Source: Palleronia sp. THAF1 (GTDB lineage: Bacteria > Pseudomonadota > Alphaproteobacteria > Rhodobacterales > Rhodobacteraceae). Taken from it: a stretch of 64,000 nucleotides of DNA. The translations under genes were made by a program, and so were the position numbers. Location: the NCBI RefSeq assembly GCF_009363795.1, contig NZ_CP045420.1, positions 229,001 through 293,000 on the forward strand. Direction: 5' to 3'. Below are positions 13,431-60,150 of the stretch, in pieces; the first letter of the stretch is position 1, and every line of letters begins with the position of its first letter. Below the pieces are notes generated by a model. The model made no database searches. It was not told the DNA's origin and worked only from the letters and a program-made list of their open reading frames with translations.

Positions 13431-13464
13431 GCCCTGCGGGGCAGGTATTTAAGGAACAGTGAAG
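13431..13464 (+). repeat. Composite hairpin-box element, copy A
   Basis: A short hairpin, GCCC at 13431-13434 and GGGC at 13439-13442, runs straight into the 23-base box at 13442-13464 (CAGGTATTT at the start, GTGAAG at the end). It is the most diverged of the six clear copies. It ends 3 bases before the ATG of the flavodoxin-like gene, so here the box also supplies the AAGGA ribosome binding region. Confidence 0.7.
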
Positions 13465-13467
13465 CAC

Positions 13468-13953
13468 ATGGCGCAGCTTTTGGTGGTCTGGCATTCTCGC
13501 ACGGGTGGGTCGGAAGCGATGGCTTTGGCCGCAGCAGAAGCGGCCCGCGCGGAGTGTTTCGTGGTGTGTTTGCGCGCGGATGAGGCGGGCCCGGACGATG
13601 TGCTCGCCGCAGATGGTTACCTGTTCTGCGGCCCGGAAAATCTGGCGGCGCTGTCGGGGATGATGAAGGACTTCTTCGACCGCTGCTACTACCCCGTCCT
13701 GGGCCGGATTGAGGGCCGCCCCTACGCGCAGATGATCTGCGCCGGGTCGGACGGTGAGGGCGCGGCGAAGCAGCTGGCCCGTATCGCGCAGGGATGGCGG
13801 CTGAAGGCGGTACAGGAGCCGGTGATCGTCATGGTCGACGCACAGACGTCAGAGGCGATCCTGGCGGAGAAGGAACTGACCGAGGACCAACTGGCCCTCT
13901 GCCGTGAACTGGGCGCGGTGCTGGGGGCTGGGTTGGAGATGGGGGTGTTTTAA
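13468..13953 (+). CDS. Flavodoxin-like FMN-binding protein
   Basis: The product begins MAQLLVVWHSRTGGSEAMAL, where HSRTGGSEAM is a phosphate-binding loop of the flavodoxin fold. It continues with DGYLFCGPENLAALSGMMKDF, resembling flavodoxin-family NAD(P)H-dependent reductases. It has 161 residues from ATG 13468; a GTG nine bases earlier is also possible. It is likely a small cytoplasmic redox protein of unknown partner. A repeated intergenic box ends just before its start codon. Confidence 0.8.
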   Translation: MAQLLVVWHSRTGGSEAMALAAAEAARAECFVVCLRADEAGPDDVLAADGYLFCGPENLAALSGMMKDFFDRCYYPVLGRIEGRPYAQMICAGSDGEGAAKQLARIAQGWRLKAVQEPVIVMVDAQTSEAILAEKELTEDQLALCRELGAVLGAGLEMGVF

Positions 13954-13965
13954 CCCCAGCGGCGT

Positions 13966-14334
13966 TCATCCATCGCTGAGGTCGATGCCCAATTCTTGCA
14001 AAGCGGCCTTCATCTGGGTGATTTCGCGCTCCTGATCCTCGATGATCTTTCGGGCGATATCAGCGGTTTCAGCATCCTCTCCCTGTTCCAGAACGACCAT
14101 TGCCATGTCGATGGCGGACTGGTGGTGCGGGATCATCATCAGCAGGAAGTCCGCGTCTGGATTGCCGGAGGATTCGATGTCGGCCATGTCCTGCATCATG
14201 TAATCCATCGGAGCCATGAGCGCGGACATCGAGTCCGACGCATGAGCTCCATGATCCATGCCTTGCATGGATTGAGCGAATGCCCCGAAGGGAAAAATCA
14301 GGACCAATGCGATGGCGCCGCGTTTGAAGGGCAT
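13966..14334 (-). CDS. DUF305 secreted metal-related protein
   Basis: The 122-residue protein has a signal peptide (MPFKRGAIALVLIFPFGAFA), then a Met/His-rich stretch (MQGMDHGAHASDSMSALM) and the DUF305 signature LLMMIPHHQSAIDMA, followed by a second helix with Glu- and Gln-rich turns. DUF305 proteins are periplasmic four-helix proteins frequently linked to copper handling, which the Met/His clusters support; metal binding here is inferred. It is a single-gene unit convergent with the flavodoxin-like gene. Confidence 0.88.
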   Translation of the reverse strand: MPFKRGAIALVLIFPFGAFAQSMQGMDHGAHASDSMSALMAPMDYMMQDMADIESSGNPDADFLLMMIPHHQSAIDMAMVVLEQGEDAETADIARKIIEDQEREITQMKAALQELGIDLSDG

Positions 14335-14436
14335 GGGAGGAATATCCTTGATGACTGGGTCCGCAGAAAGCGGCCTACATCAAGTAGACCCGCGCATGCT
14401 CACTCCAAGATCCTCACGGTATCGTGCAAGAGTGAT

Positions 14437-16716
14437 CTACCCATAGACCGCCACCGGCGTCCCGGCGATGGCGCTCATGTTCAGCAGGCCCCGGGCCGTG
14501 ATCGAGGACGTCACGATGTGCGCCTTGTTGCCCATGCCCATGAGGATGGGGCCGACTTCGAGGCCGCCGGCTTTCATTTTCAGGATGTTGCGCACGCCGG
14601 AGGCGGCGTCCGTGTTCGCGAAGACCAGCACGTTGGCCGCACCCGACATGCGGGAGTTGGGGAAGATGCGGTGGCGGACGTCTTCGTCGAGCGCGGCGTC
14701 GGCGTGCATTTCACCTTCGTAGCAGAAGTCGCGGGGTTGCGAGTCCAGGATCTCTAGTGCTGCGCGCATTCGGACGCCCGTGTCGCAGTCGAAGTTGCCT
14801 AACTGGCTGTGCGAGCAGAGGGCGATCTTGGGTTCGACGCCAAAGCGCTTCACGTGCCGGGCGGCTCCGATGCAGGTGGCGGCGATCTGTTCAGGCGTGG
14901 GCTGCGGGTTCACGTGGGTGTCGGCGACAAACAGCGGGCCGTCCTCCAGGATCATCAGGGACAGCGCGCCGACCGCATGGCACCCGTCGGTCGCGAGCAC
15001 CTGCGTGATGTAGTCCAGATGCCAGAGGTACTGGCCGAAAGTGCCGCAGATCATCGAATCCGCCTCGTCACGATGCACCATGACCGCGCCGATGGCGGTG
15101 GTATTCGTGCGCATGATGGCCTTGGCGATATCTGGCGTGACGCCGCGCCGCTCCATGATCGAATGGTAGGTCTGCCAGTAGTCGCGGTAGCGCGGGTCGT
15201 TATCGGGCGACACGATCTCGAAGTCACGGTCGGGGCGGATCGCAAGGCCGGCGCGTTCAGCGCGCAGGGCGATGACTTCGGGGCGACCGATCAGGATCGG
15301 CGTGTCGGTCGTTTCCTCCAGCATGGCATTGGCGGCGCGCAGCACGCGCTCGTCCTCGCCTTCCGTGAAGACGATACGGCGCTGGGCGGTTGCGGCGGCT
15401 TCGAACACGGGGCGCATAATGAAGGACGATTTGAAGACCGATGCGTCGAGCTTGCGCTTGTAGGCGGCCATGTCCGCGATGGGGCGCTCCGCCACACCGG
15501 ATTCCATTGCGGCCTGAGCGACCGCGGAGGCGACGACGCCCATCAGGCGCGGATCGAAGGGCTTGGGGATCAGGTAGTCGGGGCCGAAGGTCATCTGCTC
15601 GCCCTGGTAGGCGGCGGCGGCTTCGGCAGATGTGGTCTTGCGCGCGAGTTCGGCGATGCCTTCGACGCAGGCGATCTTCATGGCGTCATTGATCGTCGTC
15701 GCGCCCACGTCCAGCGCGCCGCGGAAGATAAAGGGGAAGCACAGGACGTTGTTGACCTGGTTCGGGAAATCACTGCGGCCCGTGGCGATCAGCGCGGTAG
15801 GCGCTGTGGCGCGCGCTTCTTCGGGGTCGATCTCTGGGTTCGGATTGGCGAGCGCGAAGATGATCGGGTCGGCGGCCATGCGCGCGACCATGTCGGTGGT
15901 CAGCACGCCGGGGCCGGAGAGGCCAAGGAACAGGTCTGCGCCTTCGATCACATCGGACAATTTGCGAGCGCCGCAAGGCTGGGCGTAGGCGGCCTTCTGT
16001 TCAGTCATGTCCTTTTCGCGGCCTTCGTGAACCAGACCCTCCAGGTCGCAGAGAAACACGTTCTCGCGCTTCACGCCCAGTTTCAGCAGCATGTCGAGGC
16101 AGGCGATGCCCGCCGCTCCGCCGCCGGTGGAGACGACCTTGATATCGGCGAAAGCTTTGCCCGCGACGCGCAAGGCGTTGGTGGCAGCAGCGCCGACCAC
16201 GATGGCCGTGCCGTGCTGGTCGTCGTGGAAGACGGGAATGTTCATGCGTTCACGGCAGATACGTTCCACCACGAAGCAGTCCGGGGCCTTGATGTCTTCC
16301 AGGTTGATTGCACCGAAGGTCGGTTCCAGCGCGCAGACGATCTCGGCCAGCTTTTCGGGGTCGGCTTCGTTCAGCTCGATATCGAAGCAGTCGATGTCGG
16401 CGAACTTCTTGAAAAGGACTGCCTTGCCTTCCATCACGGGTTTTGAGGCCAGGGCGCCGATATTGCCAAGGCCCAGCACGGCAGTCCCGTTGGTCACAAC
16501 CGCCACGAGGTTGCCGCGCGCCGTGTAGTCGCGCGCGGTGACGGGGTCGGCTTTGATTTCCAAGCAGGCCTCGGCCACACCAGGCGAATAAGCGCGGGCC
16601 AGGTCGCGGGCATTGGCGAGCGGCTTGGTGGCCCTGATTTCCAGCTTACCCGGCTTGGGGTGGCGGTGATAATCAAGTGCGGCTTCGCGCAACTGGGATT
16701 TTTTATCGTCGCTCAT
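14437..16716 (-). CDS. maeB: NADP-dependent malic enzyme with C-terminal phosphotransacetylase-like domain
   Basis: This 759-residue MaeB-type enzyme decarboxylates malate to pyruvate. The N-terminal malic domain includes [19 protein letters not shown] and [20 protein letters not shown]. The NAD(P) domain has [19 protein letters not shown] and a [11 protein letters not shown] nucleotide loop. From about residue 430 a phosphotransacetylase-like domain follows ([20 protein letters not shown]), thought to be regulatory through acetyl-CoA in this family. It supplies NADPH and pyruvate during growth on organic acids. It stands alone; the promoter side faces the DUF3072 genes. Confidence 0.96.
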
Positions 16717-16797
16717 GGCCTGTCCCCTGATCTGTCGGGAACAGGCTTAGAGTGGATCGGGGTGCGGTGAAAGAGTGTCGCACCCCGCGCTGGCCAA

Positions 16798-17025
16798 TCA
16801 GTCGGTGCCGCGCCCGGTCTTGTTCTGCAGCGCGTCGATCTGCTTGGACGCCTCGGCCTTGGTCATGTCGGGATCGTACTCGACACCGGCTTCCTCACAC
16901 AGCGTCTGCAGGTAACTGGCCTGTGCGCCGGTCATCTTCTCGTCCCCGGTCACCCAGTCGTCCACCGGTTTGTCGGCGTTCGAAGGGGCCTCGGTCTTCG
17001 GATCTGCGTATGGGTCATCGGCCAT
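16798..17025 (-). CDS. DUF3072 family protein, copy 1
   Basis: The 75-residue acidic protein reads DEKMTGAQASYLQTLCEEAG, then DMTKAEASKQIDALQ. This is a small helical DUF3072 unit with a SAP-like helix pattern (MT..QA..L..L, then MT.AEA...I..L). The N-terminal part is disordered and Pro/Asp-rich. Function is unknown. A paralogue with the same two-helix motif lies immediately upstream on the same strand. Confidence 0.85.
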   Translation of the reverse strand: MADDPYADPKTEAPSNADKPVDDWVTGDEKMTGAQASYLQTLCEEAGVEYDPDMTKAEASKQIDALQNKTGRGTD

Positions 17026-17089
17026 GGGGTGGCTCCGTTCTTGAAATGTTCTGATGCTAAACCCGCGAAGACGTCACGGGTTCCGGGGG

Positions 17090-17311
17090 TCAGTCGTCAG
17101 ACAGTGCGGCAATCCGCGCGTCGGCCTGTTCGCGGGTCATGTTGCCGTCAAAGGCCTCGTTCTTCTTCTCGCAAAGATCACGCAGGATCGCGGCTTGCTT
17201 GTCGGTCATCGGCTCGTCCTTGCCTGAAAACTCTCCGTGCACGACGGCGCCGCCGATCGGGAAATTGCCGGTGCCGGTGTTCTTGTCGCCGGGAATGGTG
17301 TCGTCGGCCAT
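17090..17311 (-). CDS. DUF3072 family protein, copy 2
   Basis: The 73-residue paralogue of the neighbouring gene reads EPMTDKQAAILRDLCEKKNE, then NMTREQADARIAALSDD. The shared pattern of MT, QA, L-C-E and MT-A-I-L shows tandem duplication. The N-terminal half (TGTGNFPIGGAVVHGEFSG) is different and glycine-rich. Function is unknown. The two genes are 64 bases apart and could be one transcript. Confidence 0.85.
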   Translation of the reverse strand: MADDTIPGDKNTGTGNFPIGGAVVHGEFSGKDEPMTDKQAAILRDLCEKKNEAFDGNMTREQADARIAALSDD

Positions 17312-17398
17312 GGTGCATCCTCCGTTCTAAAGGCAATGCGACGGAGCGGGCCGCGGTTCCGCCTTGCCACCGGGCGGCACAGGGATCAGCATCGGGGA

Positions 17399-17788
17399 AT
17401 GGATGATCTGATCGCTGCCGCAGCCGCCGTGCGTGAAAATGCCCACGCACCTTATTCCAATTTCAAGGTGGGGGCCGCCTTGCGCACGCGCGACGGGCAG
17501 GTGTTCGCTGGGTGCAACGTGGAAAACGTCGCCTTTCCCGAAGGCACCTGCGCCGAGGCGGGTGCCATCGCCGCCATGTGCGCCGCTGGTGCGCGCGAGA
17601 TCGTGGCGGTCGCGGTGATCGCAGACAGCCCGGCGCCGGTGCCCTGTTGCGGCGGCTGCCGACAGAAAATCGCCGAGTTCGCCGGGGCCGACGTGCCGGT
17701 GATGATGGCCACCACCAGCGGCGCGCGGCGGCAGGTGACAGTGGCCGAACTGCTGCCGGGGGCCTTCGACGCCGGGTTCATGAAGTGA
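17399..17788 (+). CDS. cdd: Cytidine deaminase
   Basis: The 129-residue zinc enzyme converts cytidine and deoxycytidine to uridine and deoxyuridine. The signature is intact: GCNVENVAFPEGTCAEAGAI with the zinc Cys 51 and catalytic Glu 53, and VPCCGGCRQKIAEF with the second Cys pair. ATG 17399 gives the tetrameric-type family length; longer upstream frames are rejected. It is first in a nucleoside-salvage operon; its stop overlaps the deoA GTG start by four bases. Confidence 0.96.
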   Translation: MDDLIAAAAAVRENAHAPYSNFKVGAALRTRDGQVFAGCNVENVAFPEGTCAEAGAIAAMCAAGAREIVAVAVIADSPAPVPCCGGCRQKIAEFAGADVPVMMATTSGARRQVTVAELLPGAFDAGFMK

Positions 17789-19062
17789 AACAGCTGCTGG
17801 TCGATCTACGGGCCGGACGGGTGCCATCTGCCGATGCTTTGCGCGCGTTCGCCGCCGGTTTGGCGGATGGCAGCGTGTCCGATGCGCAGGCGGGCGCTTT
17901 CGCCATGGGCGTATGCCGGGGGCCGGGGCTGGGAGAGGCCGGGCGCGTGGCGCTGACGGATGCGATGGCCCGATCGGGCGATGTGCTGTCTTGGGATTTG
18001 GACGGGCCGGTGGTGGACAAGCATTCCACCGGCGGCGTGGGCGATCCGGTGTCGCTGGTGTTGGCCCCGATGTTGGCGGCGGTGGGCTGCTACGTCCCGA
18101 TGATCTCTGGCCGTGGGCTGGGACACACCGGCGGCACGCTGGACAAGCTGGAAGCGATACCGGGACTGTCGGTAGAACTGGACGAAACGCGGGTCCGTTC
18201 GGTGGTCGCCGAGTGCGGCGCGGCCATCGTTGCGGCCTCGGACCGGATCGCGCCAGCGGATCGGCGTCTTTATGCCGTGCGCGACGCGACCGCGACGGTG
18301 GATCAAATGGACCTGATCACGGCGTCAATTCTGTCGAAGAAGCTGGCCGCCGGGTTGGATGCGCTGGTGCTGGATGTGAAGACCGGGGCAGGCGCGTTCA
18401 TGGTCGATCCCGACGACGCACGCTCCCTGGCGCAGGCGTTGGTGCGCGCGGCGAACGGTGCGGGCTGCCGCACGGCGGCGCTGATCACGGCGATGGACCA
18501 GCCACTTGCCCCCGCCTGCGGCAACGCGCTGGAAATCATCGCGGTGATGGAGGTGTTGACCGGCGTGTCGGCAGACAAACGCCTGCACGATGTGGCGTTG
18601 GCGCTGGGTGAAGTCGTGCTGGAGTTGGCCGGGATGGACGCCGATCTGGCTGCAACGCTCGCCGATGGCCGCGCGGCGGAACGGTTCGGCGCGATGGTCG
18701 CCGCGATGGGCGGGCCGTCGGACTTCGTGGATCGCTGGGCGGACAGGTTGCCAGCGGCCCCCGTCGTCGTCACGGTGCAGGCAGAGGCGGCAGGCGTTGT
18801 GTCCGGCATCGACGGGACGGCGCTTGGGCACGCGGTGGTCGCTTTGGGAGGTGGACGCACGCGGCCCGGTGACGCCGTGGACCCGTCGGTCGGGCTTAGT
18901 CAGGTGGTGCGTCTGGGCACAAAGGTGGCGCCGGGCGATCCATTGGCGCGGGTTCATGCAGCCGATGAAAATTCGGCAGAGCGCGCTGTGGTGGCTGTGC
19001 GCGACGCGCTTCGGCTGGATGAGGGTCCGCAGCCGATGCCACTTGTTCTGGAGAGGGTCTGA
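17785..19062 (+). CDS. deoA: Thymidine phosphorylase
   Basis: DeoA cleaves thymidine and deoxyuridine with phosphate to the base and deoxyribose-1-phosphate. The 425-residue protein has the motif VVDKHSTGGVGDPVSLVLAP (phosphate and pyrimidine site), GRGLGHTGGTLDKLEAIPG, and the C-terminal pyrimidine phosphorylase domain (HAVVALGGGRTRPGDAVD). The GTG start overlaps the cdd stop (GTGA). The product of cdd is its substrate, and deoB next handles its sugar phosphate. A hairpin-box repeat lies between it and deoB. Confidence 0.96.
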   Translation: MKQLLVDLRAGRVPSADALRAFAAGLADGSVSDAQAGAFAMGVCRGPGLGEAGRVALTDAMARSGDVLSWDLDGPVVDKHSTGGVGDPVSLVLAPMLAAVGCYVPMISGRGLGHTGGTLDKLEAIPGLSVELDETRVRSVVAECGAAIVAASDRIAPADRRLYAVRDATATVDQMDLITASILSKKLAAGLDALVLDVKTGAGAFMVDPDDARSLAQALVRAANGAGCRTAALITAMDQPLAPACGNALEIIAVMEVLTGVSADKRLHDVALALGEVVLELAGMDADLAATLADGRAAERFGAMVAAMGGPSDFVDRWADRLPAAPVVVTVQAEAAGVVSGIDGTALGHAVVALGGGRTRPGDAVDPSVGLSQVVRLGTKVAPGDPLARVHAADENSAERAVVAVRDALRLDEGPQPMPLVLERV

Positions 19063-19081
19063 TGCGTGCGATGGTGCGGAA

Positions 19082-19131
19082 CGAGGGGCGCTGCCCCTCG
19101 CGCTCCCCGAGGTATTTTTGGAACGATGAAG
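19082..19131 (+). repeat. Composite hairpin-box element, copy B
   Basis: The hairpin is CGAGGGGC at 19082-19089 with GCCCCTCG at 19093-19100, 19 bases after the deoA stop. The box at 19109-19131 has the consensus GAGGTATTT, TTG, GAACGATGAAG. An alternative stem, CCTCG with CGAGG directly before TATTTTT, could form instead, so the element can be drawn as two mutually exclusive hairpins. The deoB ATG is 10 bases after the box. Confidence 0.8.
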
Positions 19132-19141
19132 GGGTGCGGCC

Positions 19142-20305
19142 ATGAGCCGGGCGTTCCTTATCGTGCTGGACTCGGTCGGCATTGGCGGCGCTCCGGATGC
19201 GGCGGACTTCGGAGATGCGGGCGCGAATACGGTGGGGCATATCGCGCAGACGGTGGATGTGTCGCTGCCGAACCTTGATGCGCTGGGGCTGGGGGCGGCG
19301 GTGACATTGGCCTCTGGTCTTGAGGTGCCGGGACTGGGGGCAAAGCCGACCGGTGCATGGGGCGCGGCGACAGAGGTCAGCCGGGGGAAGGACACGCCGT
19401 CTGGCCACTGGGAACTGGCGGGTGTGCCCGTTCCGTGGGAGTGGACGTATTTTCCGGACACGCGGCCCGCTTTCGACGCTGAACTGTCGGCGCGGGTGGC
19501 CGAACTGGCGGGCACCGATGGCATCCTTGGGAACCGCCACGCCAGCGGCACCGCAATCCTGGATGAAGAGGGGGCCGCGCACCTGCGGACGGGCTGGCCG
19601 ATCTGCTATACCTCGACTGACAGCGTGTTCCAGATCGCAGCCCATGAAGAGGTATTCGGACTGGACCGCCTGCTGGACCTATGCGCCGCGCTGGCCCCGG
19701 AACTGCATGCGCGCAAGGTGGGCCGGGTGATCGCGCGGCCCTTCGTGGGCGATGCGACAAGCGGTTTCACTCGCACGCCGCGCCGACAGGATTTCGCCAT
19801 CGCGCCACCATCGCCGACCCTGTGCGACTGGGTGTCTGGTGCGGGCCGACGGGTGCATTCCGTCGGCAAGATCGGGGACATCTTCTCGATGCGGGGGATC
19901 GACACCAAGGTGAAGGGTGCGGACGCGGATCTGCTGATCGCGCTGGAAGGTCTGATGGACACGGCAGAGGATGGATCGCTGACTTTCGCCAATTTTGTCG
20001 AGTTCGACAGCGAATATGGCCACCGCCGCGACGCCCTCGGATACGCGCGGCATCTGGAATGGTTCGACGCTGCCTTGCCCAGCCTGCTGGGCCGGATGCA
20101 CGACGGCGATCTGCTGGTGATAACGGCGGATCACGGCAACGACCCCACGTGGCGCGGCACGGATCACACGCGCGAACGGGTGCCGGTCCTATGCGCCGGG
20201 GTCGGCCGCCGTGCGTTGGGCCAGGTGGCTTTCGTAGACGTTGCCGCGAGCATCGCGGATCATTTGGGTGTGCCGAATGGCGGGCCGGGACGGAGTTTCC
20301 TATGA
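19142..20305 (+). CDS. deoB: Phosphopentomutase
   Basis: DeoB interconverts (deoxy)ribose-1-phosphate and 5-phosphate, linking deoA to pentose use. The 387-residue enzyme of the alkaline-phosphatase superfamily shows the metal sites: FLIVLDSVGIGGAPDAADFG at the N-terminus, YTSTDSVFQIAAHE in the cap, and LVITADHGNDPTWRGTDHTR with two Asp-His pairs at the C-terminus. Its stop overlaps the add start by four bases (ATGA). Confidence 0.96.
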   Translation: MSRAFLIVLDSVGIGGAPDAADFGDAGANTVGHIAQTVDVSLPNLDALGLGAAVTLASGLEVPGLGAKPTGAWGAATEVSRGKDTPSGHWELAGVPVPWEWTYFPDTRPAFDAELSARVAELAGTDGILGNRHASGTAILDEEGAAHLRTGWPICYTSTDSVFQIAAHEEVFGLDRLLDLCAALAPELHARKVGRVIARPFVGDATSGFTRTPRRQDFAIAPPSPTLCDWVSGAGRRVHSVGKIGDIFSMRGIDTKVKGADADLLIALEGLMDTAEDGSLTFANFVEFDSEYGHRRDALGYARHLEWFDAALPSLLGRMHDGDLLVITADHGNDPTWRGTDHTRERVPVLCAGVGRRALGQVAFVDVAASIADHLGVPNGGPGRSFL

Positions 20306-21276
20306 AAGAGTTACCGAAGGTCGAACTGCACCTGCATCTGGAGGGCGCGATGCCGCCCGCCTTCGCGCGGGACATGGCGAAAGCGAAGAACGTCGATATC
20401 TCGCGCATCTTCGACGACAGCGGTGCCTACAACTACGACGGCTTTCTGGAATTCCTGCAGGTCTACGAGGTCGCAACCAGTGTCCTGATCCGGCCAGAGG
20501 ATTTCGCCAAGTTGACCCGAACGGTGTTGGAGCAATCGGCGGAAACGGGCGTGATCTATACCGAGGCGTTCCTGTCGCCCGACTTCTGCGGCGGGCGCGA
20601 CGTGGGAGCATGGCGCGAGTATCTGCACGCGATCCGCGAGGCAGCAGAGGGGGCAGAGCGTGACTTCGGCATCGCCATGCGCGGGATCGTCACCTGCATC
20701 CGCCACTTCGGGCCGGACAAAGCCAAGGAAACCGCGCGCTGTGCGGCCGAGACGGCGGGCGACTTCATCACCGGCTTCGGCATGGGCGGTGATGAGGGCA
20801 AAGGGCGGCAGGGCGACTTCGCCTATGCCTTCGACATGGCGCGTGAGGCCGGGTTGCGGCTGACGACCCACGCGGGCGAATGGGGCGGGCCGTCCTCGGT
20901 GCGGCACGCGCTGGACGATTTGCGCGTCGAACGGATCGGCCACGGCGTGCGGGCGATCGAGGACCCGGCGCTGGTCGAACGTTTGGCGCGCGATGGCGTG
21001 GTGCTGGAAGTCTCTCCGGGATCGAATGTCGCGCTTGGCATCTATAAGTGGAACACGCATCCTATCGAAAAGCTGCGCGCCGCGGGCGTGCCCATCACCG
21101 TGTCCACCGATGATCCGCCGTTCTTCCACACCGATATGGTCCACGAATACGACCGTCTGGCGGCGACCTTCGGCTGGGACGAAGACATGTTCCGCCACAT
21201 CGCGCGGGTATCAATCGACGCCGCCTTCTGCGATGAGCCTACGCGCAAACGGCTTCACGAAAGGATCGACGCATGA
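20302..21276 (+). CDS. add: Adenosine deaminase
   Basis: Add converts adenosine and deoxyadenosine to inosine forms. The 324-residue enzyme begins [18 protein letters not shown] with the HLH zinc motif. It also has [15 protein letters not shown] (third zinc His and substrate contacts), [11 protein letters not shown] with the catalytic-site His, and [11 protein letters not shown] with the zinc Asp. ATG 20302 overlaps the deoB stop and gives the usual length; the much longer open frame upstream is shadow. It is coupled downstream to upp. Confidence 0.95.
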
Positions 21277-21905: not shown

Positions 21906-22046
21906 AGAGCGGCGTTCGGCGACACCATCGACCTGCGCTTCCCCGGCCAGTGGTCCCAGTCCGAGACCGGGCACTGTCAGAACTGGAAGCTCGACTACGA
22001 CCCGACCACGGGCCGCTACCTCCAAGCCGACCCGCTCGGCCTGATG
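21906..22046 (+). pseudogene. Remnant of an RHS-repeat protein core
   Basis: The frame continuing from the upp stop reads AFGDTIDLRFPGQWSQSETG, then NWKLDYDPTTGRYLQADPLG and LM. This is the highly conserved end of the RHS core domain (RFPGQ, ETG, YDP-TGRYLQ-DPLGL). No RHS gene surrounds it and no start codon or toxin tail is present, so about 45 codons of an RHS polymorphic-toxin or wall-associated protein survive as a scar. It sits between upp and an unrelated secreted-protein gene. Confidence 0.88.
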
Positions 22047-22133
22047 GGTGGGAAATTTCGCGTTTCCGCCACCAACCCTTGTCGCAGTCCCTTATCCGCG
22101 CCATCCTCACGACAAATCGTCCGGGGGGACATT

Positions 22134-23084: not shown

Positions 23085-23091
23085 GCGCGGA

Positions 23092-31411: not shown

Positions 31412-31472
31412 GGGGGCGCTGCCCCCGCCGCTCTTCGAGCGACTCCCCCGAGGTATTTTTCGAACGATGAAG
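31412..31472 (+). repeat. Composite hairpin-box element, copy C
   Basis: The hairpin is GGGGGC at 31412-31417 with GCCCCC at 31421-31426, then a second small hairpin (GCTC, TTC, GAGC), then the box at 31450-31472 (GAGGTATTT, TTC, GAACGATGAAG). Unlike the other copies it does not follow a gene on its own strand; it lies upstream of, and opposite to, the GST gene and points towards copy D. Confidence 0.8.
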
Positions 31473-31613: not shown

Positions 31614-31645
31614 CTTCATCGTTCCGCAAATACCTCCGCCGGAGG
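31614..31645 (-). repeat. Composite hairpin-box element, copy D
   Basis: On the minus strand a CCTCC/GGAGG hairpin (31645-31633) leads directly into the box at 31636-31614 (GAGGTATTT, GCG, GAACGATGAAG). It begins 11 bases after the stop of the small gene ending at 31656, the same placement relative to a stop codon as copies B, E and F. It faces copy C. Confidence 0.8.
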
Positions 31646-50972: not shown

Positions 50973-51016
50973 GGCTGGTGTTGCGCCGGGGTGTGGCGCG
51001 GCGCTAGGGGCGTCGG

Positions 51017-52357: not shown

Positions 52358-52361
52358 GGCG

Positions 52362-53117
52362 ATGCCGCGTTACGCGTTCAAGGTCGAATATCACGGCGCA
52401 CCTTTTGCGGGGTGGCAGAGGCAGGTGGACCAGCCCTCTGTCCAAGGCGCGTTGGAAGCAGCGCTGGCGCGGCTGGAAGACGACGTGCCCTCTATCGCCG
52501 CGGCCGGGCGGACCGATGCCGGGGTGCATGCGACAGCGCAGGTGGCCCATGCGGATACGGCGCGCGACTGGGACCCGTTCCGGCTGATGGAGGCGGTGAA
52601 CTATCACCTGAAACCCGCGCCGGTTGCGGTGGTGGCCTGCGCGCGGGTGGCTGACGATTGGCACGCGCGGTTCAGTGCGGTGGGGCGACGCTATCTGTAC
52701 CGCGTGGTGTCCCGGCGCGCGCCGTTGGTGCACGACAAGGGCCTGGCGTGGTGGGTGCGGCACCCGCTGGACGCGGGCGCGATGCAGGCGGGGGCGGATC
52801 GGTTGCTCGGGCAGCATGATTTCACGACGTTTCGCTCGGTGCAGTGCCAGGCGAAGTCTCCGGTGAAGACTCTGGATCGCCTGGTGGTCGAGGTGGATGG
52901 GGATGAGGTTCGATTTCATGTCGAGGCACGGTCGTTTCTGCACAATCAGGTGCGCAGCTTTGTAGGTACGTTGGAGCGCGTCGGTCGCGGGGCATGGTCG
53001 CCTGACGATGTAACGGCGGCGTTAGAGGCGCGGGAACGGGCGGCCTGCGGGCCGGTGGCGCCGCCGGAAGGGTTGTATCTGGTGGGCGTGGTGTATCCAG
53101 AAGATCCGTTCGGCTGA
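52362..53117 (+). CDS. truA: tRNA pseudouridine(38-40) synthase
   Basis: TruA modifies U38-U40 in the anticodon stem of many tRNAs. The 251-residue enzyme has the catalytic Asp in [20 protein letters not shown], the tRNA-binding [20 protein letters not shown], and [20 protein letters not shown] at the end. The start lies 4 bases after the MATE stop. The stop codon is the first part of a GC-rich hairpin that begins a composite hairpin-box repeat. Confidence 0.96.
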
Positions 53118-53178
53118 GGGGCTCTGCCCCTTTTGGCCCTTGGCCAATTCACCCCGAGGTATTTGCGGAACGCTGAAA
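53117..53178 (+). repeat. Composite hairpin-box element, copy E
   Basis: The hairpin is AGGGGC at 53117-53122 with GCCCCT at 53126-53131, followed by TTT, so it also looks like a terminator for truA. After TTGGCCAA the box lies at 53156-53178 (GAGGTATTT, GCG, GAACGCTGAAA; two changes from consensus). The hairpin begins at the last base of the truA stop. Confidence 0.78.
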
Positions 53179-53180
53179 AC

Positions 53181-53240
53181 ATGGCGGCAGACCCTTTCCA
53201 CGCCTATCTGTGCATCGACGGCAGGAAAGGGCAGGCATGA
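53181..53240 (+). CDS. Possible 19-codon leader peptide upstream of ycjX
   Basis: ATG 53181 opens a frame coding MAADPFHAYLCIDGRKGQA. Its stop overlaps the ycjX start by four bases (ATGA), which would couple ycjX translation to it. The start lies 2 bases after the conserved box, with only a weak ribosome binding site. It may be chance; no homologue is known to me. Confidence 0.25.
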   Translation: MAADPFHAYLCIDGRKGQA

Positions 53241-54640
53241 TCGGCGAGTTGGTGGACGGGGTGACGACACGGATCGGTGGGCTGGGGCGCGCTGTGACGG
53301 GGCGGTTTTCCGACAACACGATCCGGCTGGGCGTCACGGGCCTGAGCCGCGCGGGCAAAACGGTGTTCATCACGTCGCTGGTCGCGAACCTGCTGGATCG
53401 GGGGCGGATGCACGGGCTGCGCGCGGCGGCGGACGGGTCGATCCGGACGGCGTATCTTCAGCCTCAGCCCAGCGATACGCTGCCCCGGTTCGACTATGAG
53501 ACGCATCTGGACGCGATGACCGGGGCCGACCCGCAATGGCCCGAGTCGACGAGTGCGGTGTCCGAGTTGCGCCTGTCGCTGAAGGTGCAGCCGACGGGGC
53601 TGCTGGCGGGGATGCGCGGCACGCGGGTCCTGCATCTGGATATCGTGGATTATCCCGGCGAGTGGTTGCTGGACTTGGGGTTGCTGGAAAAATCCTTTGC
53701 GGAGTGGTCCGAAGGCGCGCTGGTGCGGGCGCGGTCCCGCGCGCAAGGGGCGGCGTTCGTGGAACTGGTCGAAGGCGTCGATCCGACGGCCAAGATGGAC
53801 GAAGGGCTGGCCAAGCGGTTGGCTGAAGCGTGGACAGGCTATCTGCGGGCGGCCAAGGATGCGGGCTATTCGGACTGCTCTCCGGGGCGGTTCCTGTTGC
53901 CTGGGCAGATGGCCGGATCGCCCGCGCTGACCTTTGCACCATTGCCCGAAGGGGGCGGTCGTGGATCGTTGGGAAAAGAGTTCGAGCGGCGGTTCGAGGC
54001 CTACAAGCGCGAGGTCGTGCGCCCGTTTTTCCGCGCGCATTTCGCGCAGATCGATCGGCAGGTGGTGCTTGTGGATGCGCTGGGCGCGATCCATGCGGGA
54101 CCACAGGCGGTGGACGATCTGCGGGTGGCGATGACGGATATTCTGTCGGCCTTCAGGCCCGGTCGGAATGCGTTTCTGACCGAGATTTTTCGGGGCAAGC
54201 GGGTCGAGAAGATCCTGTTCGCTGCGACCAAGGCAGACCATCTGCACCACGCGCAACACGGGCAGTTGACGCGGATCATGGAGGCATTGGTCGAGGATGC
54301 GAAGCGGCGGGCGGAGTATGCAGGCGCCCGCGTGTCTTCCATGGCGCTGGCGTCGCTACGCGCGACGACCGAGGACCGTATGACGCATGAGGGCGAGGAA
54401 TTGGACATGGTGCGCGGGGTGCTGGAGTCGGGCAAGCGCGCGGCGTTCTGGCCGGGGGCGCTGCCCGATGATCCGCAGGCGTTGCTCAGTCAGGGACGTC
54501 GAGGAGAGACGGCTTGGCTGGACGGCGATTTCGCGGCGATGACCTTCGTGCCGCAGGGGGGGGCGCTGAAGCCCGGAGAGGGGCCGCCGCATATTCGGCT
54601 GGACCGTGCGGCGGAGTTTCTGATCGGGGATCGGTTATGA
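53237..54640 (+). CDS. ycjX: YcjX-family P-loop GTPase-like protein
   Basis: The 467-residue protein has the P-loop GLSRAGKTVFITSLVANLL near residues 36-54 and LHLDIVDYPGEWLLDLGLLE, where a DxxG-like switch motif sits. It has long helical insertions (EFERRFEAYKREVVRPFF) and an NKxD-like AATKADHLHH. YcjX proteins are stress-linked, dynamin-like nucleotide-binding proteins of uncertain role, nearly always paired with YcjF. ycjF follows 22 bases later. ATG 53237 with GGAAAGGGCAGG upstream is chosen. Confidence 0.92.
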   Translation: MIGELVDGVTTRIGGLGRAVTGRFSDNTIRLGVTGLSRAGKTVFITSLVANLLDRGRMHGLRAAADGSIRTAYLQPQPSDTLPRFDYETHLDAMTGADPQWPESTSAVSELRLSLKVQPTGLLAGMRGTRVLHLDIVDYPGEWLLDLGLLEKSFAEWSEGALVRARSRAQGAAFVELVEGVDPTAKMDEGLAKRLAEAWTGYLRAAKDAGYSDCSPGRFLLPGQMAGSPALTFAPLPEGGGRGSLGKEFERRFEAYKREVVRPFFRAHFAQIDRQVVLVDALGAIHAGPQAVDDLRVAMTDILSAFRPGRNAFLTEIFRGKRVEKILFAATKADHLHHAQHGQLTRIMEALVEDAKRRAEYAGARVSSMALASLRATTEDRMTHEGEELDMVRGVLESGKRAAFWPGALPDDPQALLSQGRRGETAWLDGDFAAMTFVPQGGALKPGEGPPHIRLDRAAEFLIGDRL

Positions 54641-54662
54641 GTAACTTTAGAAAGTCGATGGC

Positions 54663-55661
54663 ATGGTGAAACGCCCAGTTCTGATCGAGGACGACGCTTT
54701 TGAAGGGCCGGGACCGGCCGAGGCGTTGCCGGTTCCCGACAGCGACGTGCCTGCGGACGGGCGGGCGATGCGGACGATGGCGGCCTTGGCGGCGCGGCCC
54801 CGGTCGGCGTTGGGAACGTGGTTCTGGCGGTTGTCGGGGGCCTTGTTCGTGTTCCTGTTGTCCGTTGCGGCATGGTCGGCGGTGGATGCGATGCTGGCGC
54901 GCTCTGCCATCTTGGGTGGAATCGCGACCGTACTGGTGGCGGGCGTGGCGATCACCTCGCTGGGCTTGGTCCTGCGCGAGTTATTGGCGCTGTCGCGCCT
55001 GAAGCGCGTCGGACGGGTCCAAGCGGATGCGACGGCGGCGATCGCGGCGCAGGATCTGGATGCGGCCAAGGGCGTCGCGGACCGCATCGTGGCACTTTAT
55101 TCCGGGCGCGACGCGCTGGATTGGCAGCGCGAGCGGTTCGCCGAACGGCGGGGCGACGTGTTTGACGCGGATGCCTTGCTGGGCCTGGCCGAAACCGAGC
55201 TGCTGACCCCGCTTGATGACGCCGCGCGGGCCGAGGTCGAGGCGGCGGCGCGTCAGGTCGCGGCGGTGACGGCAGTGGTGCCCTTGGCGCTGGCGGATGT
55301 GGCAGCGGCTGCGGTCTCGAACCTGCGGATGATCCGACGGATTGCAGAGATTTACGGCGGTCGCGCGGGGTCGCTTGGCACCTGGCGGCTGACACGGGCG
55401 GTGTTCGCGCATCTGGTGGCGACGGGGGCCGTGGCGGTGGGCGATGATCTGATCGGCTCGATCGCCGGAGGATCGGTGCTGGCGCGGTTGTCGCGTCGGT
55501 TCGGCGAGGGCATCGTGAACGGTGCGCTGACCGCACGGGTCGGTGTGGCGGCGATCGAAGTTTGCCGCCCGTTGCCCTTCGTGGCAGCGAAGAAGCCGCA
55601 GGTGCATAAGCTGATCGGGCGGGCGCTGTCGGGGGTTTTCCCGCAAAGCCGGAAAGACTGA
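54663..55661 (+). CDS. ycjF: YcjF-family membrane protein
   Basis: The 332-residue partner of YcjX has a disordered acidic N-terminus and two membrane helices near residues 50-100 (LFVFLLSVAAWSAVDAMLAR, ILGGIATVLVAGVAITSLGL). The DUF697-like C-terminal domain includes VVPLALADVAAAAVSNLRMI and GSVLARLSRRFGEGIVNGAL. The pair probably forms a membrane-associated stress complex; the mechanism is not known. They are cotranscribed. Confidence 0.9.
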   Translation: MVKRPVLIEDDAFEGPGPAEALPVPDSDVPADGRAMRTMAALAARPRSALGTWFWRLSGALFVFLLSVAAWSAVDAMLARSAILGGIATVLVAGVAITSLGLVLRELLALSRLKRVGRVQADATAAIAAQDLDAAKGVADRIVALYSGRDALDWQRERFAERRGDVFDADALLGLAETELLTPLDDAARAEVEAAARQVAAVTAVVPLALADVAAAAVSNLRMIRRIAEIYGGRAGSLGTWRLTRAVFAHLVATGAVAVGDDLIGSIAGGSVLARLSRRFGEGIVNGALTARVGVAAIEVCRPLPFVAAKKPQVHKLIGRALSGVFPQSRKD

Positions 55662-55772
55662 TACTTAGCTCCGACGGACAGAGGCATCTGTTGCGGAAAG
55701 TCGGTGCGATGGAACCGGCGGCACTTTGTCGCGTTCGTGGCTGTTGGCCTCTTGCATAAGTGAACGCATTCT

Positions 55773-56927
55773 TTGGACCGTCCCGTCGTAAATCCTGATC
55801 CCATCGATCCAGACACGCTTGCGCCCGAACTGGCGCGCGCCGCGACGGTGCGCGAGTTGCAGCGCATCCGGGGGCTCGTGATCGTTCTGGTCTTGATCGG
55901 CGTCACCATCGCGTTGTTTTTCGCACGCGACGTCATCCTGCCGATCATCCTTGGTGTGATGCTGGCATTGACGTTGTCGCCCTTGGTGCGGTTTTTTTCC
56001 CGACTCAAGGTCCCGCCGCCGTTGACCGCCGTGGTTCTGATTTTCGGCTTGGGAACGGGCTTGGCGGCCGGCGGCTACGCAATGTCCGGCCCGGTTTCGA
56101 CATGGATCGAAAGCGCGCCCGAAATGGGGGTGCGGTTAGAAGAAAAACTGCGTGGCGTCTTCGCGTCGGTCGAAAAGGTGAAAGAGGCTGCCGACCAGGC
56201 TGAAGAGATCACCCAGGGCGACGACACGGTGCAACGCGTCGCCGTTGAACAGCCGGGCCTTTTGAATTCCGCGGCGAGTGCCGCGGCCACGGCCGGCACG
56301 ACCATCGCGGTATCTCTGGTGCTGGCCCTGTTCATCCTGGCGTCAGGAGAGATGTTCTACGCGAAAATCGTCGAGGCTTACCCTAAGTTGAGCGAGAAGA
56401 AGCGGGCTCTGCGCATCGTCTATGGGGTCGAACGCGCGATCTCTCGTTACCTCCTGACCATCGCGCTGATCAACGCCGGTCTGGGTGTCATCGTCTTTCT
56501 GTTGATGTGGGCCATCGGCTTGCCGAACGCGTACATCTGGGGCTTCGTCGCGTTCCTCTTCAACTTCCTGCCGTTCATCGGGGCTATCGCGGGCGTGGTC
56601 CTCGTGGGTCTTTACGCGCTCCTGATGATCGAGCCGCTGGGCGCCGCACTGCTGGCCCCCGCGCTTTACCTTGCTGCCACAACGGTCGAAGGCAACATCA
56701 TCACGCCAGCCATTCTGGGGCGCAGTTTGCAGCTAAATACGGTGTCGGTCTTCATCACGGTCGTGTTCTGGGGCTGGCTTTGGGGCATTCCCGGCGCTCT
56801 GATGGCGGTGCCGTTCCTGGTGATCGTCAAGGTGATCTGCGACAACGTGGCCGGACTGAAGACACTGGGGCTGTTCCTTGGCTCGGCGGATACTTCGGTG
56901 GCAGAGGCGAAGACGGCAGAGGCGTAG
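55773..56927 (+). CDS. AI-2E family transporter
   Basis: The 384-residue protein begins at TTG 55773; no ATG or GTG fits the conserved start better. It has about eight membrane helices with the family layout. A first pair (GLVIVLVLIGVTIALFFARD, ILPIILGVMLALTLSPLVRF) is followed by a long polar middle (EKVKEAADQAEEITQGDDTV) and a C-terminal bundle (FVAFLFNFLPFIGAIAGVVL, ATTVEGNIITPAILGRSLQL). Members export autoinducer-2, ions or metabolites; the substrate here is unknown. Confidence 0.9.
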   Translation: MDRPVVNPDPIDPDTLAPELARAATVRELQRIRGLVIVLVLIGVTIALFFARDVILPIILGVMLALTLSPLVRFFSRLKVPPPLTAVVLIFGLGTGLAAGGYAMSGPVSTWIESAPEMGVRLEEKLRGVFASVEKVKEAADQAEEITQGDDTVQRVAVEQPGLLNSAASAAATAGTTIAVSLVLALFILASGEMFYAKIVEAYPKLSEKKRALRIVYGVERAISRYLLTIALINAGLGVIVFLLMWAIGLPNAYIWGFVAFLFNFLPFIGAIAGVVLVGLYALLMIEPLGAALLAPALYLAATTVEGNIITPAILGRSLQLNTVSVFITVVFWGWLWGIPGALMAVPFLVIVKVICDNVAGLKTLGLFLGSADTSVAEAKTAEA

Positions 56928-57006
56928 GTCGTGACTTGCCCGTCCGCGGGCTTCCTGCCAAAAGCGGGGCCGACATGATCTGGACCTATCTCATACGAAT
57001 TACGCG

Positions 57007-57035
57007 CCCGGCGGCCTGATCGGCCTGCCGGGTTT
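57007..57035 (+). terminator. Weak terminator-like hairpin before ileS
   Basis: CCCGGC at 57007-57012 pairs with GCCGGG at 57027-57032 with inner GGCC/GGCC pairing, followed by TTT only. It lies 79 bases after the transporter stop. Confidence 0.4.
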
Positions 57036-57100
57036 CCCGCGCCGAGATTGCTCGCGCCCTTTCGCATGTTCCAGACCGCCCATTACACGGGATTTTCCCC

Positions 57101-60091
57101 ATGTCCGATACGCCCGAAACCCCCGACTACAAAGACACCCTGTTCCTGCCGCAGACGGATTTCCCGATGCGCGCGGGATTGCCCAAGCGAGAGCCCGAGT
57201 GGCTGGCGCGCTGGGCGCAGATCGGGGTCTATGATCGCCTGCGCGAGAAGAAGGGCCGCGCGCCCTTCACGCTGCACGATGGCCCGCCTTACGCGAACGG
57301 CAACCTGCATATCGGCCACGCGCTGAACAAGACGATCAAGGACATGATCGTGCGCTCGCACCAGATGATGGGTCATGACGCGCGCTATGTGCCCGGCTGG
57401 GACTGCCACGGCCTGCCGATCGAGTGGAAGATCGAGGAACAGTACCGCGCCAAGGGCAAGGATAAGGACCAGGTCGACGTGGTGGAGTTCCGCCGCGAAT
57501 GCCGCGAGTTCGCGGCGGGCTGGGTGGATGTGCAGCGCGAGGAATTCCAGCGCCTTGGCGTCACCGGCAACTGGGCTGATCCCTACCTGACGATGGATTT
57601 CCACGCCGAGGCCGTGATCGCCGCCGAGTTCCAGAAGTTTCTGATGAACGGCGTTCTGTATCAGGGCAGCAAGCCGGTGATGTGGTCGCCGGTTGAAAAG
57701 ACCGCGCTGGCCGAGGCGGAGGTCGAGTACCATGAGCGCCAGACCGATGCGATCTGGGTGAAGTTCCCGGTGGTTTCGGCCAGCCGCGACGCCGACATCA
57801 TCGCTTCCGAGGAAGAGGCCACGGACGATGCGCGCGAGTCAGAGGCCGAAGCTGTCCTGAAGCGCGAGGCACAGCTGGAGGCGGCGACCGTCATCATCTG
57901 GACGACGACGCCGTGGACGATCCCATCGAACCGGGCGATTTGCTTCAACCCCGAGGTGTCCTACGGCCTGTATGAAGTCACCGCGACACCAGACGAATGC
58001 TGGGCGTCGGTGGGTGACCTTTACCTGTTGGCGGACAACCTTGCCGCCGAGGTGCTGGCTGCCGCCCGTCTGGAAGACGGCCAGTGGAGCCGCGTGCGCG
58101 GTCTGCGGACGTCCGAGCTGGAGGCGCTGGTTTGCGCGCATCCGCTGCGCGGGGCCGAGGGTGGTCAGGGCGAGTGGGATTACGACGTGCCCATGCTGCC
58201 GGGCGCGCATGTCACCGACGACGCGGGCACGGGCTTTGTGCACACTGCGCCCAGCCACGGCGACGATGACTTCCAGATCGGCCTGCAGCACGGGCTGGTG
58301 ATGACCTACAACCACGGCGACGACAGCGCCTACCGCGCCGATTTGCCGTTCTTCGCAGGGCTTGAGGTTATCAATCCCAAGGGCAAGCCGGGGGGCGCGA
58401 ACAAGGCCGTCATCGAAAAGCTGGTCGAGACCGGCCGGCTGTTGGCCCGCAAGCGTATCACGATTTCCGATGCGCACTCCTGGCGCTCGAAGGCGCCGGT
58501 GATCCGTTTGAACCGGCCCCAATGGTTTGCCGCCATCGACCGTGCGGTGGGCGACGGCCAGGACCAGTATGGCACGACGATCCGCGAACGTGCGCTGCGG
58601 TCCATCGATGAGCTGGTGACGTGGACGCCCAAACGTGGGCGGAACCGTCTGCACGCGATGATCTCTGACCGGCCCGACTGGGTGCTGTCGCGCCAGCGCG
58701 CTTGGGGCGTGCCGCTGACCTGCTTCGTGAAGAAGGGGGCGAAACCAGACGAACCGGGCTTTTTGCTGCGGGATGAGGCCGTCAACAAACGGATTTTTGA
58801 CGTTTTCGAACAAGAGGGCGCGGATGCATGGTATGTGCAAGGCGCCAAGGAACGCTTCCTCGGGGACGATTATGACCCCGATGAATGGGAGCAGGTGTTC
58901 GACATCCTGGACGTCTGGTTCGACTCCGGCTCGACCCACGCTTTCGTGCTGCGTGACCGCGCGGACGGGAGCGAGGACGGCATCGCGGATGTTTACATGG
59001 AGGGCACGGACCAGCACCGCGGCTGGTTCCATTCCTCGCTGTTGCAGGCCTGCGGAACCATGGGACGCGCGCCCTATCGCAACGTGGTCACCCACGGCTT
59101 CACGCTGGATGCCAAGGGCAACAAGATGTCCAAGTCGGTGGGCAACACCGTGGCGCCGCAGAAGGTCATCGACCAGTACGGCGCGGATATCCTGCGGTTG
59201 TGGGTCGCGCAGTCTGACTACACGGGCGATTTGCGCATCGGGGACGAGATCCTGAAGGGCGTGGCGGACAGCTATCGGCGCCTGCGCAACACGATCCGCT
59301 TCATCCTGGGCAATGTTGCGCATTACGACGAGGCGCTGGCAGTGGAGCCTGCGGATATGCCGGAACTGGAGCGGCTGATGCTGCACAAGCTGGCCGTGCT
59401 GGATGGCGTGGTGCGCGACGGCTACCGCCGATTCGACTTCGCAAAAGTGTTCCAAGAGGTGTTCACCTTCGCCACGGTGGACCTGTCGTCCTTCTATTTC
59501 GACGTGCGTAAGGACGCGCTGTATTGCGACGCGGCGGACAGCATCGAGCGGCGCTCTGCGCTGACTGTCTTGGACCTGCTGTATCACCGCCTGGTCACGT
59601 GGTTGGCCCCGGTGCTGTGCTTCACCATGGAAGAGACGTGGTTGGAGCGGTTCGGGGAAGATGTGTCGTCCGTCCACCTGCTCGACTTCCCCGAAACGCC
59701 GGAAAGCTGGCGCGACGATGCACTGGCCGCCCGGTCCGAGCAGGTGCGTGCGGTGCGGCGCGTGGTGACAGGCGCGTTGGAGTTGAAGCGGCGCGAAAAG
59801 GCGATCGGCGCGTCGCTGGAGGCTGCACCCATTGTGCACCTCTCGCCAGAATTGGCCGAGGTGGTGCGTGATGCAGAGACCTTCGCCACGCTGTGCATCA
59901 CGTCTGACATCACGTTGACGACCGATCCCGCGCCTGCCGAGGCGTTCCGTCTGCCAGAGGTGGATGGTGTGGCTGTCGTTTTCGCCAGGGCCGACGGGCA
60001 GAAATGCCAGCGCTGCTGGAAAGTGCTGCCGGATGTGGGATCTCATAAGCATGACGCCGTCTGCGGACGGTGTGACACGGCGCTGGGGTGA
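57101..60091 (+). CDS. ileS: Isoleucyl-tRNA synthetase
   Basis: This 996-residue class I synthetase has the HIGH motif in GPPYANGNLHIGHALNK, KMSKS in DAKGNKMSKSVGNTVAP, and the CP1 editing domain (ATVIIWTTTPWTIPSNRAIC, FVHTAPSHGDDDFQIG). The C-terminal zinc finger reads QKCQRCWKVLPDVGSHKHD, then VCGRCD. The length fits the long bacterial form. Within the CP1 region an acidic insertion (ASEEEATDDARESEAEAVLK) is present. Its stop is followed by a composite hairpin-box repeat. Confidence 0.98.
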   Translation: MSDTPETPDYKDTLFLPQTDFPMRAGLPKREPEWLARWAQIGVYDRLREKKGRAPFTLHDGPPYANGNLHIGHALNKTIKDMIVRSHQMMGHDARYVPGWDCHGLPIEWKIEEQYRAKGKDKDQVDVVEFRRECREFAAGWVDVQREEFQRLGVTGNWADPYLTMDFHAEAVIAAEFQKFLMNGVLYQGSKPVMWSPVEKTALAEAEVEYHERQTDAIWVKFPVVSASRDADIIASEEEATDDARESEAEAVLKREAQLEAATVIIWTTTPWTIPSNRAICFNPEVSYGLYEVTATPDECWASVGDLYLLADNLAAEVLAAARLEDGQWSRVRGLRTSELEALVCAHPLRGAEGGQGEWDYDVPMLPGAHVTDDAGTGFVHTAPSHGDDDFQIGLQHGLVMTYNHGDDSAYRADLPFFAGLEVINPKGKPGGANKAVIEKLVETGRLLARKRITISDAHSWRSKAPVIRLNRPQWFAAIDRAVGDGQDQYGTTIRERALRSIDELVTWTPKRGRNRLHAMISDRPDWVLSRQRAWGVPLTCFVKKGAKPDEPGFLLRDEAVNKRIFDVFEQEGADAWYVQGAKERFLGDDYDPDEWEQVFDILDVWFDSGSTHAFVLRDRADGSEDGIADVYMEGTDQHRGWFHSSLLQACGTMGRAPYRNVVTHGFTLDAKGNKMSKSVGNTVAPQKVIDQYGADILRLWVAQSDYTGDLRIGDEILKGVADSYRRLRNTIRFILGNVAHYDEALAVEPADMPELERLMLHKLAVLDGVVRDGYRRFDFAKVFQEVFTFATVDLSSFYFDVRKDALYCDAADSIERRSALTVLDLLYHRLVTWLAPVLCFTMEETWLERFGEDVSSVHLLDFPETPESWRDDALAARSEQVRAVRRVVTGALELKRREKAIGASLEAAPIVHLSPELAEVVRDAETFATLCITSDITLTTDPAPAEAFRLPEVDGVAVVFARADGQKCQRCWKVLPDVGSHKHDAVCGRCDTALG

Positions 60092-60096
60092 GAGCG

Positions 60097-60150
60097 CTGG
60101 GGGGCTTCGCGCCCCCCAGACCCCTGCGAGGTATTTGTCGAACGATGAAG
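60097..60150 (+). repeat. Composite hairpin-box element, copy F
   Basis: The hairpin is CTGGGGGGC at 60097-60105 with GCCCCCCAG at 60111-60119, 5 bases after the ileS stop. The box lies at 60128-60150 (GAGGTATTT, GTC, GAACGATGAAG). The dnaX start chosen is 57 bases downstream. Confidence 0.8.

Follow-up and report, generated by a model that had tools for sequence, protein, structure and literature searches.

This study focused on a repeated composite element found in a 64,000-nt stretch of the genome of Palleronia sp. THAF1 (NZ_CP045420.1, positions 229,001–293,000; hereafter the window), in which one hairpin or two are usually followed by a C-run and a 23-nt box that is asymmetric. Judged from sequence comparison, we lean towards the view that it belongs to an extragenic family of the Rhodobacteraceae resembling the repetitive extragenic palindromic (REP) sequences, and that its box is read as DNA by a dedicated, putative trans-acting factor. 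The box, GAGGTATTT-NNR-GAACGATGAAG (N, any base; R, purine), has six matches in the window, four exact, one with two and one with three mismatches, and none in 100 dinucleotide shuffles of it. Boxes with four or five mismatches are absent from the window, and hairpins of the types scanned for there all lead to a box with at most two mismatches. An earlier note, made from the letters of the window, had listed the same six copies, all at their correct places, and a short GC-rich hairpin does stand immediately 5′ of each, the 5-bp stems at 31614 and 13442 including the first bases of the box. The surroundings it described were also found: four boxes follow a stop codon on their own strand, at distances of 46 nt (19109), 19 nt (31614, minus strand), 38 nt (53156) and 36 nt (60128), and that at 13442 stands 3′ of a canonical terminator. 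The box at 31450 has no same-strand stop upstream, its upstream neighbour being a minus-strand gene. Nor is the element confined to these six sites, since the genome holds 80 matches at up to three mismatches (39, 20, 14 and 7 at 0, 1, 2 and 3), all on the 3.25-Mb contig, against none for the reversed pattern. All but one of the 80 were examined as loci of their own with 1.5-kb flanks, the exception (at 1979597) lying within the locus of its partner, L028.

Evidence of selection comes from two near relatives, G013 and G008, in which the flanks of the element are 92–99% identical. Thirty of the 67 copies in G013, all chosen as exact matches, were compared, and every one has a counterpart in G008, both flanks being adjacent in 28 cases. 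The fixed bases of the box differ at 3 of 600 sites and the NNR spacer at 10 of 90 (p = 2e-7), while the next 30 nt 3′ of the box differ at 49 of 882 (p = 1e-8 against the box; Fisher tests, which take sites as independent), in agreement with the suggestion of the earlier note that both halves flanking the spacer are constrained. In comparison with the more distant G008, 16 of the 79 copies of Palleronia sp. THAF1 lie in a gap that is occupied in G008 too; 13 of these have the orientation of the G008 copy and 3 the reverse, and about two such cases would be expected by chance (assuming some 3,000 gaps). At these common gaps the two genomes have different spacers, with C at position 15 in THAF1 and A in G008. 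NNR is also diverse within a fixed frame, so the copies do not look recent. Only the first two of the three central bases described as variable come near background composition; the third is a purine in 88% of the 79 copies and in 94% of the 70 G008 copies. From these comparisons the box appears to be under selection, and to be kept regardless of the direction in which the neighbouring gene is read; given selection in either orientation, something probably recognises the element.

Placement is almost always at gene ends. With gene calls from a codon-usage script, and leaving aside copies overlapped by a call (2 of 79 here, 14 of 70 in G008), 75 of 77 copies adjoin the 3′ end of a gene. They comprise 34 sense-tandem, 16 antisense-tandem, 25 convergent and 2 divergent sites, and the 56 placed copies in G008 comprise 21, 12, 16 and 7, respectively. 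The 55 box-free gaps of the window are divided into 38 tandem, 8 convergent and 9 divergent, indicating a depletion of copies from divergent gaps (p = 0.008). Orientation relative to genes, which the earlier note had expected to be ordered, is not random (34:16 sense to antisense in tandem gaps, p = 0.015) and not strict either. Among copies whose box begins with G and which have a sense gene upstream, 35 of 47 start 26–46 nt past its stop, and the opposing stop of a minus-strand neighbour is no more than 8 nt away from the box in 26 of 41 cases (7 of 28 in G008). Two of the 79 copies lie inside called genes, and close inverted pairs number two among the 80 (38 and 164 nt apart). Replichore-oriented sites, of the kind represented by the FtsK orienting polar sequences (KOPS), were considered and set aside, the plus-to-minus counts being 27:16 and 20:17, with an origin position inferred from recF near C1:1, and the spacing random (coefficient of variation 1.0).

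Antisense copies would be expected to decay if recognition took place on the sense mRNA. No decay was seen, and the box looks, on this comparative evidence, to be read as DNA. Mean mismatches in antisense and sense copies are 0.50 and 0.88 here and 0.33 and 0.57 in G008 (neither difference is significant), and in the near pair, four clear antisense copies differ at 0 of 80 box sites and two further ones, with an overlapping gene call, at 1 of 40. The share of copies with G as first base, which characterises the hairpin class, is likewise 12 of 16 in antisense and 26 of 34 in sense. Attenuation, termination or RNA processing, put forward earlier as possible roles, are thus poor candidates for the main one, as 16 of 77 copies are antisense to both neighbours and not less conserved. 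Together with the translation-initiation cassette also proposed, they further conflict with the 25 convergent copies and with the 7 of 79 that lack a stem at the threshold used, and the ATG needed by such a cassette is not kept in a dialect of G024 (GAAGAAG).

The complete unit runs, in order, through the hairpin or hairpins, a C-run, GAGG (or GGAG or GGGG), TATTT, NNR, a tetranucleotide and GATGAAR. Most copies in Palleronia sp. THAF1 have GGGGC-N3-GCCCC or similar upstream, to which about a third add a second hairpin of free sequence before the C-run; in another type, CCTCC-GGC-GGAGG, the 3′ arm is the start of the box itself. At least one stem at the threshold used occurs in 72 of the 79 upstream regions, chance stems possibly among them, and the seven stem-less copies all fall within the 16 with a base other than G at the start of the box. 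Where there is room for a second hairpin (27 copies), 22 form a stem of 5 bp or more, compared with 7% of shuffles, so that stems are retained though their sequence differs, as the idea of hairpin covariation had implied. Folding-energy z-scores for the 45 nt upstream average –1.2 (–0.6 for the downstream control), a modest effect that is similar on both strands, and the stems contain too few G-T or A-C mispairs to serve as a test of strand. Certain hairpin modules recur among the copies, and at L009, L022, L031 and L049 a single box is preceded by a hairpin in two or three tandem repeats. A G-rich stretch, CCGGGGGCG, often lies 3′ of the box in G008 and shows no copy-specific pairing to the C-run; the idea of an outer stem formed by the C-run with the G-rich flank 3′ of the box was rejected, as six permutation tests gave no pair-specific signal (lowest p 0.09).

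The recurrence in other Rhodobacterales that the earlier note could only suspect was found in congeners and in other genera of their family, taken to be the Rhodobacteraceae from named plasmid and Maritimibacter matches. Eight of 13 congeners, as well as other genera of the family, match the box at up to three mismatches, in genome-specific spellings, and 24 genomes from other families have 0–1 matches. The tetranucleotide after NNR is specific to the genome, being GAAC here and GAAA, CAAG, GCAA, CCAA or AAGA elsewhere, and the first hairpin is found in G018 and G012 ahead of other box spellings. A looser pattern, GTATTTN{6,9}GATGAA, has at least 13 matches (up to 133) in 28 of 149 genomes of the order, THAF1 included, compared with at most 2 for the control. 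All 28 belong to this family; most of the others have 0–6 matches, near background, so that in these the element either is patchy or has another spelling. Patchiness extends into the genus g59, with 78, 2 and 76 matches in different species, and GTATTTN7RRTGAAR gives 95 matches in G018, 73 in both THAF1 and G031, 22 in G011, 12 in G007 and none in G010. Beyond these genomes, 37 plasmid records have a BLAST match, mostly from Rhodobacterales (Leisingera, Phaeobacter, Paracoccus, Sulfitobacter), two Paracoccus copies showing hairpins, C-run and GGGGTATTT; three weak, partial plasmid matches are from Cupriavidus and Deinococcus. Named genome contigs gave 16 matching stretches, mostly chance, four being in Maritimibacter and three of those having hairpins by eye. 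Viral contigs contain three stretches with the GAAA dialect, and the phage records searched had no match to the element.

The gap between dnaN and recF, the contents of which were judged by eye, could be followed across the family. It carries the element in 12 of the 14 genomes of the genus, THAF1 included (the copy in G001 is degenerate), and is short and empty in G005 and G010. Among 13 other genomes of the family, the element is inverted in G022, of a second type in G019, G015 and G020, a doubtful remnant in G025 and absent from the rest; three genomes from other families have no element in this gap. In six genomes with a listed spelling, the copy has the same tetranucleotide as is used genome-wide: GAAC in THAF1 (G000), GCAG in G012 (where only two other copies were seen), CAAG in G003 (in a copy with one spacer base fewer) and GAAA in G004, G008 and G013. 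The spellings GATA (G011), GACA (G007) and AAAG (G002 and G006) were read solely from this gap. In G018 (L257) and G024 (L252) it is filled by a different palindrome (e.g., CGGAATTTTTCAAAAATTCCGG), possibly another extragenic repeat family.

In the explanation we favour, a whole hairpin-plus-box unit would enter a gap beside a stop codon, in either orientation, and selection on the box then keeps it in place while NNR drifts, as the near-relative comparison shows. The specificity of the putative factor would lie partly in the tetranucleotide after NNR, and a change in the factor would be followed by a change in the copies of that genome, giving the dialects observed. For the host, our bet would be that the unit is a boundary site at the 3′ ends of genes, serving as a roadblock, in topology or in 3′-end protection, as proposed for REPs, and that its hairpin further protects transcripts that reach it. 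The mobile origin considered in the earlier note would account for part of this, in that units seem to come and go whole and can be inverted within a shared gap, but not for their subsequent conservation in place. More tentatively, the family could be one half of a two-part system like that of the REPINs (REP doublets forming hairpins), with a new, non-Y1 partner: a fast-evolving protein that would read GTATTT-NNR-tetranucleotide-GATGAAR as DNA at some 80 gene ends, the tetranucleotides within any one genome switching jointly, even between congeners.

Several points weigh against a DNA-level role with a dedicated factor. No trans-acting factor was found, the joint change of dialect at some 80 sites within a genus is unexplained, the two dialects carried by each of G082 and G023 would need two factors, and the degenerate dnaN–recF copy in G001 does not have that genome's dialect. 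Choosing exact copies in G013 means that box changes could be counted on the G008 side only, and the true rate may be about double, at which the contrast with NNR stays large. The orthology of L230 was taken from the upstream flank alone (without this locus the counts are 2 of 580 for the box and 8 of 87 for NNR, p = 2e-6), and the gap at L210 is longer by about 0.8 kb. The antisense test is small, with 16 copies here, 12 in G008 and few near pairs. Lastly, tandem copies favour the sense orientation by about 2:1 (34:16 here and 21:12 in G008; together p = 0.004), a bias that a purely DNA-level role does not predict and that would be compatible with a secondary role in transcripts.

That bias is one of the attractions of a rival view, in our opinion unlikely, in which the unit is a transcribed element of the 3′ untranslated region, acting as a partial terminator, a stabiliser of 3′ ends or an RNase E site (a hairpin followed by single-stranded GGUAUUU). 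Hairpins lie flush with stop codons and are retained by compensatory change, terminator-like hairpins can be seen by eye after several copies (e.g., L047, L060, L064, L069), so that transcription of these copies is probable, and RNase E sites in R. sphaeroides are described as AU-rich (PMC6238624). Such a role is hard to reconcile with antisense boxes that are no less conserved than sense ones, or with the stem-less copies, and an RNase E site would presumably need neither 20 fixed bases nor a dialect. When terminators were scanned for strictly, requiring 6 bp or more of stem and a T-run, a threshold that misses the 5-bp CCTCCGGCGGAGG type, 2 of 79 copies had one after the box and in none did the box serve as T-tract.

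Less likely again is a neutral miniature mobile element, of the REP or miniature inverted-repeat transposable element (MITE) type, accumulating where it does little harm. The intergenic position, the rarity in divergent gaps, the patchiness among species, the inverted copies in one gap and the recurring hairpin modules would all suit it; the excess of NNR over box differences between orthologous copies and the diversity of NNR in copies that do not look recent would not. Against it, too, the Y1 transposase (PF01797) was not found in THAF1, and was present in 3 of 20 chosen carriers and 2 of 20 other genomes, so a REP-associated tyrosine transposase (RAYT) was rejected as partner, its presence being uncorrelated with carriers. 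Mobilisation by an IS91-type Y2 transposase (Y2_Tnp, PF04986) was rejected in the same way, as this occurs in 7 of 27 genomes and is absent from the carriers G008, G013, G009 and others. IS91 targets GAAC or CAAG, and THAF1 has three genes for Y2 (IS91-type) transposases, identical in score, at C1:137454, 157887 and 1655368. The least probable of the alternatives is that the element serves some general DNA protein of the host, gyrase or a nucleoid protein for instance, as its site at gene ends, as seen in the bacterial interspersed mosaic elements (BIMEs) of E. coli. Such a site would fit the placement at gene 3′ ends in both orientations, the random spacing and the lack of a clear replichore bias, but dialects, and a congener free of copies with the patterns used (G010), are not what a universal, conserved protein would lead one to expect.

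Among known systems, the GTAG and CGTC REPs are the nearest in placement. These are short, multicopy extragenic hairpins in unidirectional or convergent gaps, less than 20 bp from the 3′ ends of open reading frames, with families that differ by genome and can coexist, the CGTC families being present in every order of the alpha division (Di Nocera et al. 2013, PMC3733652). Rhodobacter, Paracoccus, Roseobacter and Ruegeria do not come up in a word search of that paper's main text. The element described here is similarly multicopy, extragenic and close to 3′ ends in such gaps. It differs in its conserved part, an asymmetric box of 23 nt located 3′ of a hairpin that is optional; the box contains a free spacer and a tetranucleotide specific to the genome, and dimers are rare. 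By composition, no GTAG/GTGG or CGTC/TGTC/CCTC tag is conserved at the 5′ foot of the hairpin in the copies examined; on the opposite strand, CCTC (GAGG of the box) lies beside the hairpin in this dialect, but the box has GGAG or GGGG there in others. The family is akin to REPs in placement, not in tag or architecture. REPIN-RAYT systems also maintain sequence populations for long periods within a genome (PMC8049555), with an enzyme that reads a tetranucleotide beside the hairpin (PMC6006769). The likeness lies in a persistent population with a tetranucleotide, which in the box element is 3′ of, and distant from, the hairpin, and close inverted pairs are rare. Intrinsic terminators share the GC hairpin after a stop and a T-containing stretch, most closely in the CCTCCGGCGGAGG-TATTT subtype, the only one to come near a hairpin followed directly by a T-tract on the strand of the gene; other types have about 8–12 nt or more between hairpin and TATTT, and orientation is mixed and 20 bases are fixed. 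DNA uptake sequences of Neisseriaceae have genus-level dialects and often lie at gene ends. They are far more numerous and also occur within genes, unlike the approximately 80 boxes here with 2 of 79 inside called genes. No description of the motif or family was found among the matches listed from open-licence PMC papers, in part only the best-ranking ones, so a paper printing another dialect may exist; the 11 papers containing GAACGATGAAG are unrelated by title. The MITE described from Paracoccus yeei (159 bp, related to IS1182; PMC11578231) is different, and the main text of the RepRanger paper (PMC12306157) does not mention Rhodobacter, Paracoccus or Roseobacter in a word search.

In many members of the Rhodobacteraceae, which include several model organisms and abundant marine bacteria, dozens of genes have their 3′ end marked by this element, which is unannotated in the two named records examined. 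Since the box is strongly constrained yet respelled in each genome, a partner should exist and should be findable by matching dialects. The family also offers a test case for short extragenic repeats that can be mobile in origin yet be maintained by selection, without a known REP transposase.

Table 1. Boxes and associated hairpins in the window (positions are those of the window).
Feature	Locus	Position	Strand	Basis
Hairpin, 5 bp, CCTGC-GGG-GCAGG, sharing first box bases	L073	13433..13445	+	stem scan
Box (copy A), 3 mismatches, CAGGTATTTAAGGAACAGTGAAG	L073	13442..13464	+	pattern match
Hairpin CGAGGGGC-GCT-GCCCCTCG	L003	19082..19100	+	stem scan
Box, exact; start codon of next gene 10 nt downstream	L003	19109..19131	+	pattern match
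Hairpin 1, one mismatch	L004	31409..31429	+	stem scan
Hairpin 2, GCTC-TTC-GAGC	L004	31430..31440	+	judged by eye
Box, exact, facing minus-strand copy 31614	L004	31450..31472	+	pattern match
Box, exact	L005	31614..31636	-	pattern match
Hairpin CCTCC-GGC-GGAGG, overlapping box start	L005	31633..31645	-	stem scan
Hairpin 1, AGGGGC-TCT-GCCCCT, overlapping final base of TGA stop	L061	53117..53131	+	stem scan
Hairpin 2, TTGGCC-CTT-GGCCAA	L061	53133..53147	+	stem scan
Box, 2 mismatches	L061	53156..53178	+	pattern match
Hairpin CTGGGGGGC-TTCGC-GCCCCCCAG	L006	60097..60119	+	stem scan
Box, exact	L006	60128..60150	+	pattern match

The gene starting just 3′ of the box at 19109 is presumably deoB, and those flanking the box at 60128 we take from their sequences to be ileS and dnaX. 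A facing pair resembling that of 31450 and 31614 occurs in the same gap of the relatives G008 and G004. Copies L041 and L074 (C1:689839 and 687692), 2.1 kb apart and inside called genes, have counterparts in G008. AG in place of GA at positions 16–17 recurs (GAACAGTGAAG; L059, L067, L068, L073, L076, L077), and these copies are perhaps a second subfamily. No Rfam family reached its gathering score at 20 chosen copy loci; the sole match at that score in the window, away from the copies, is a serC leader (RF00517, 70 bits) at 4915–4966 on the plus strand.

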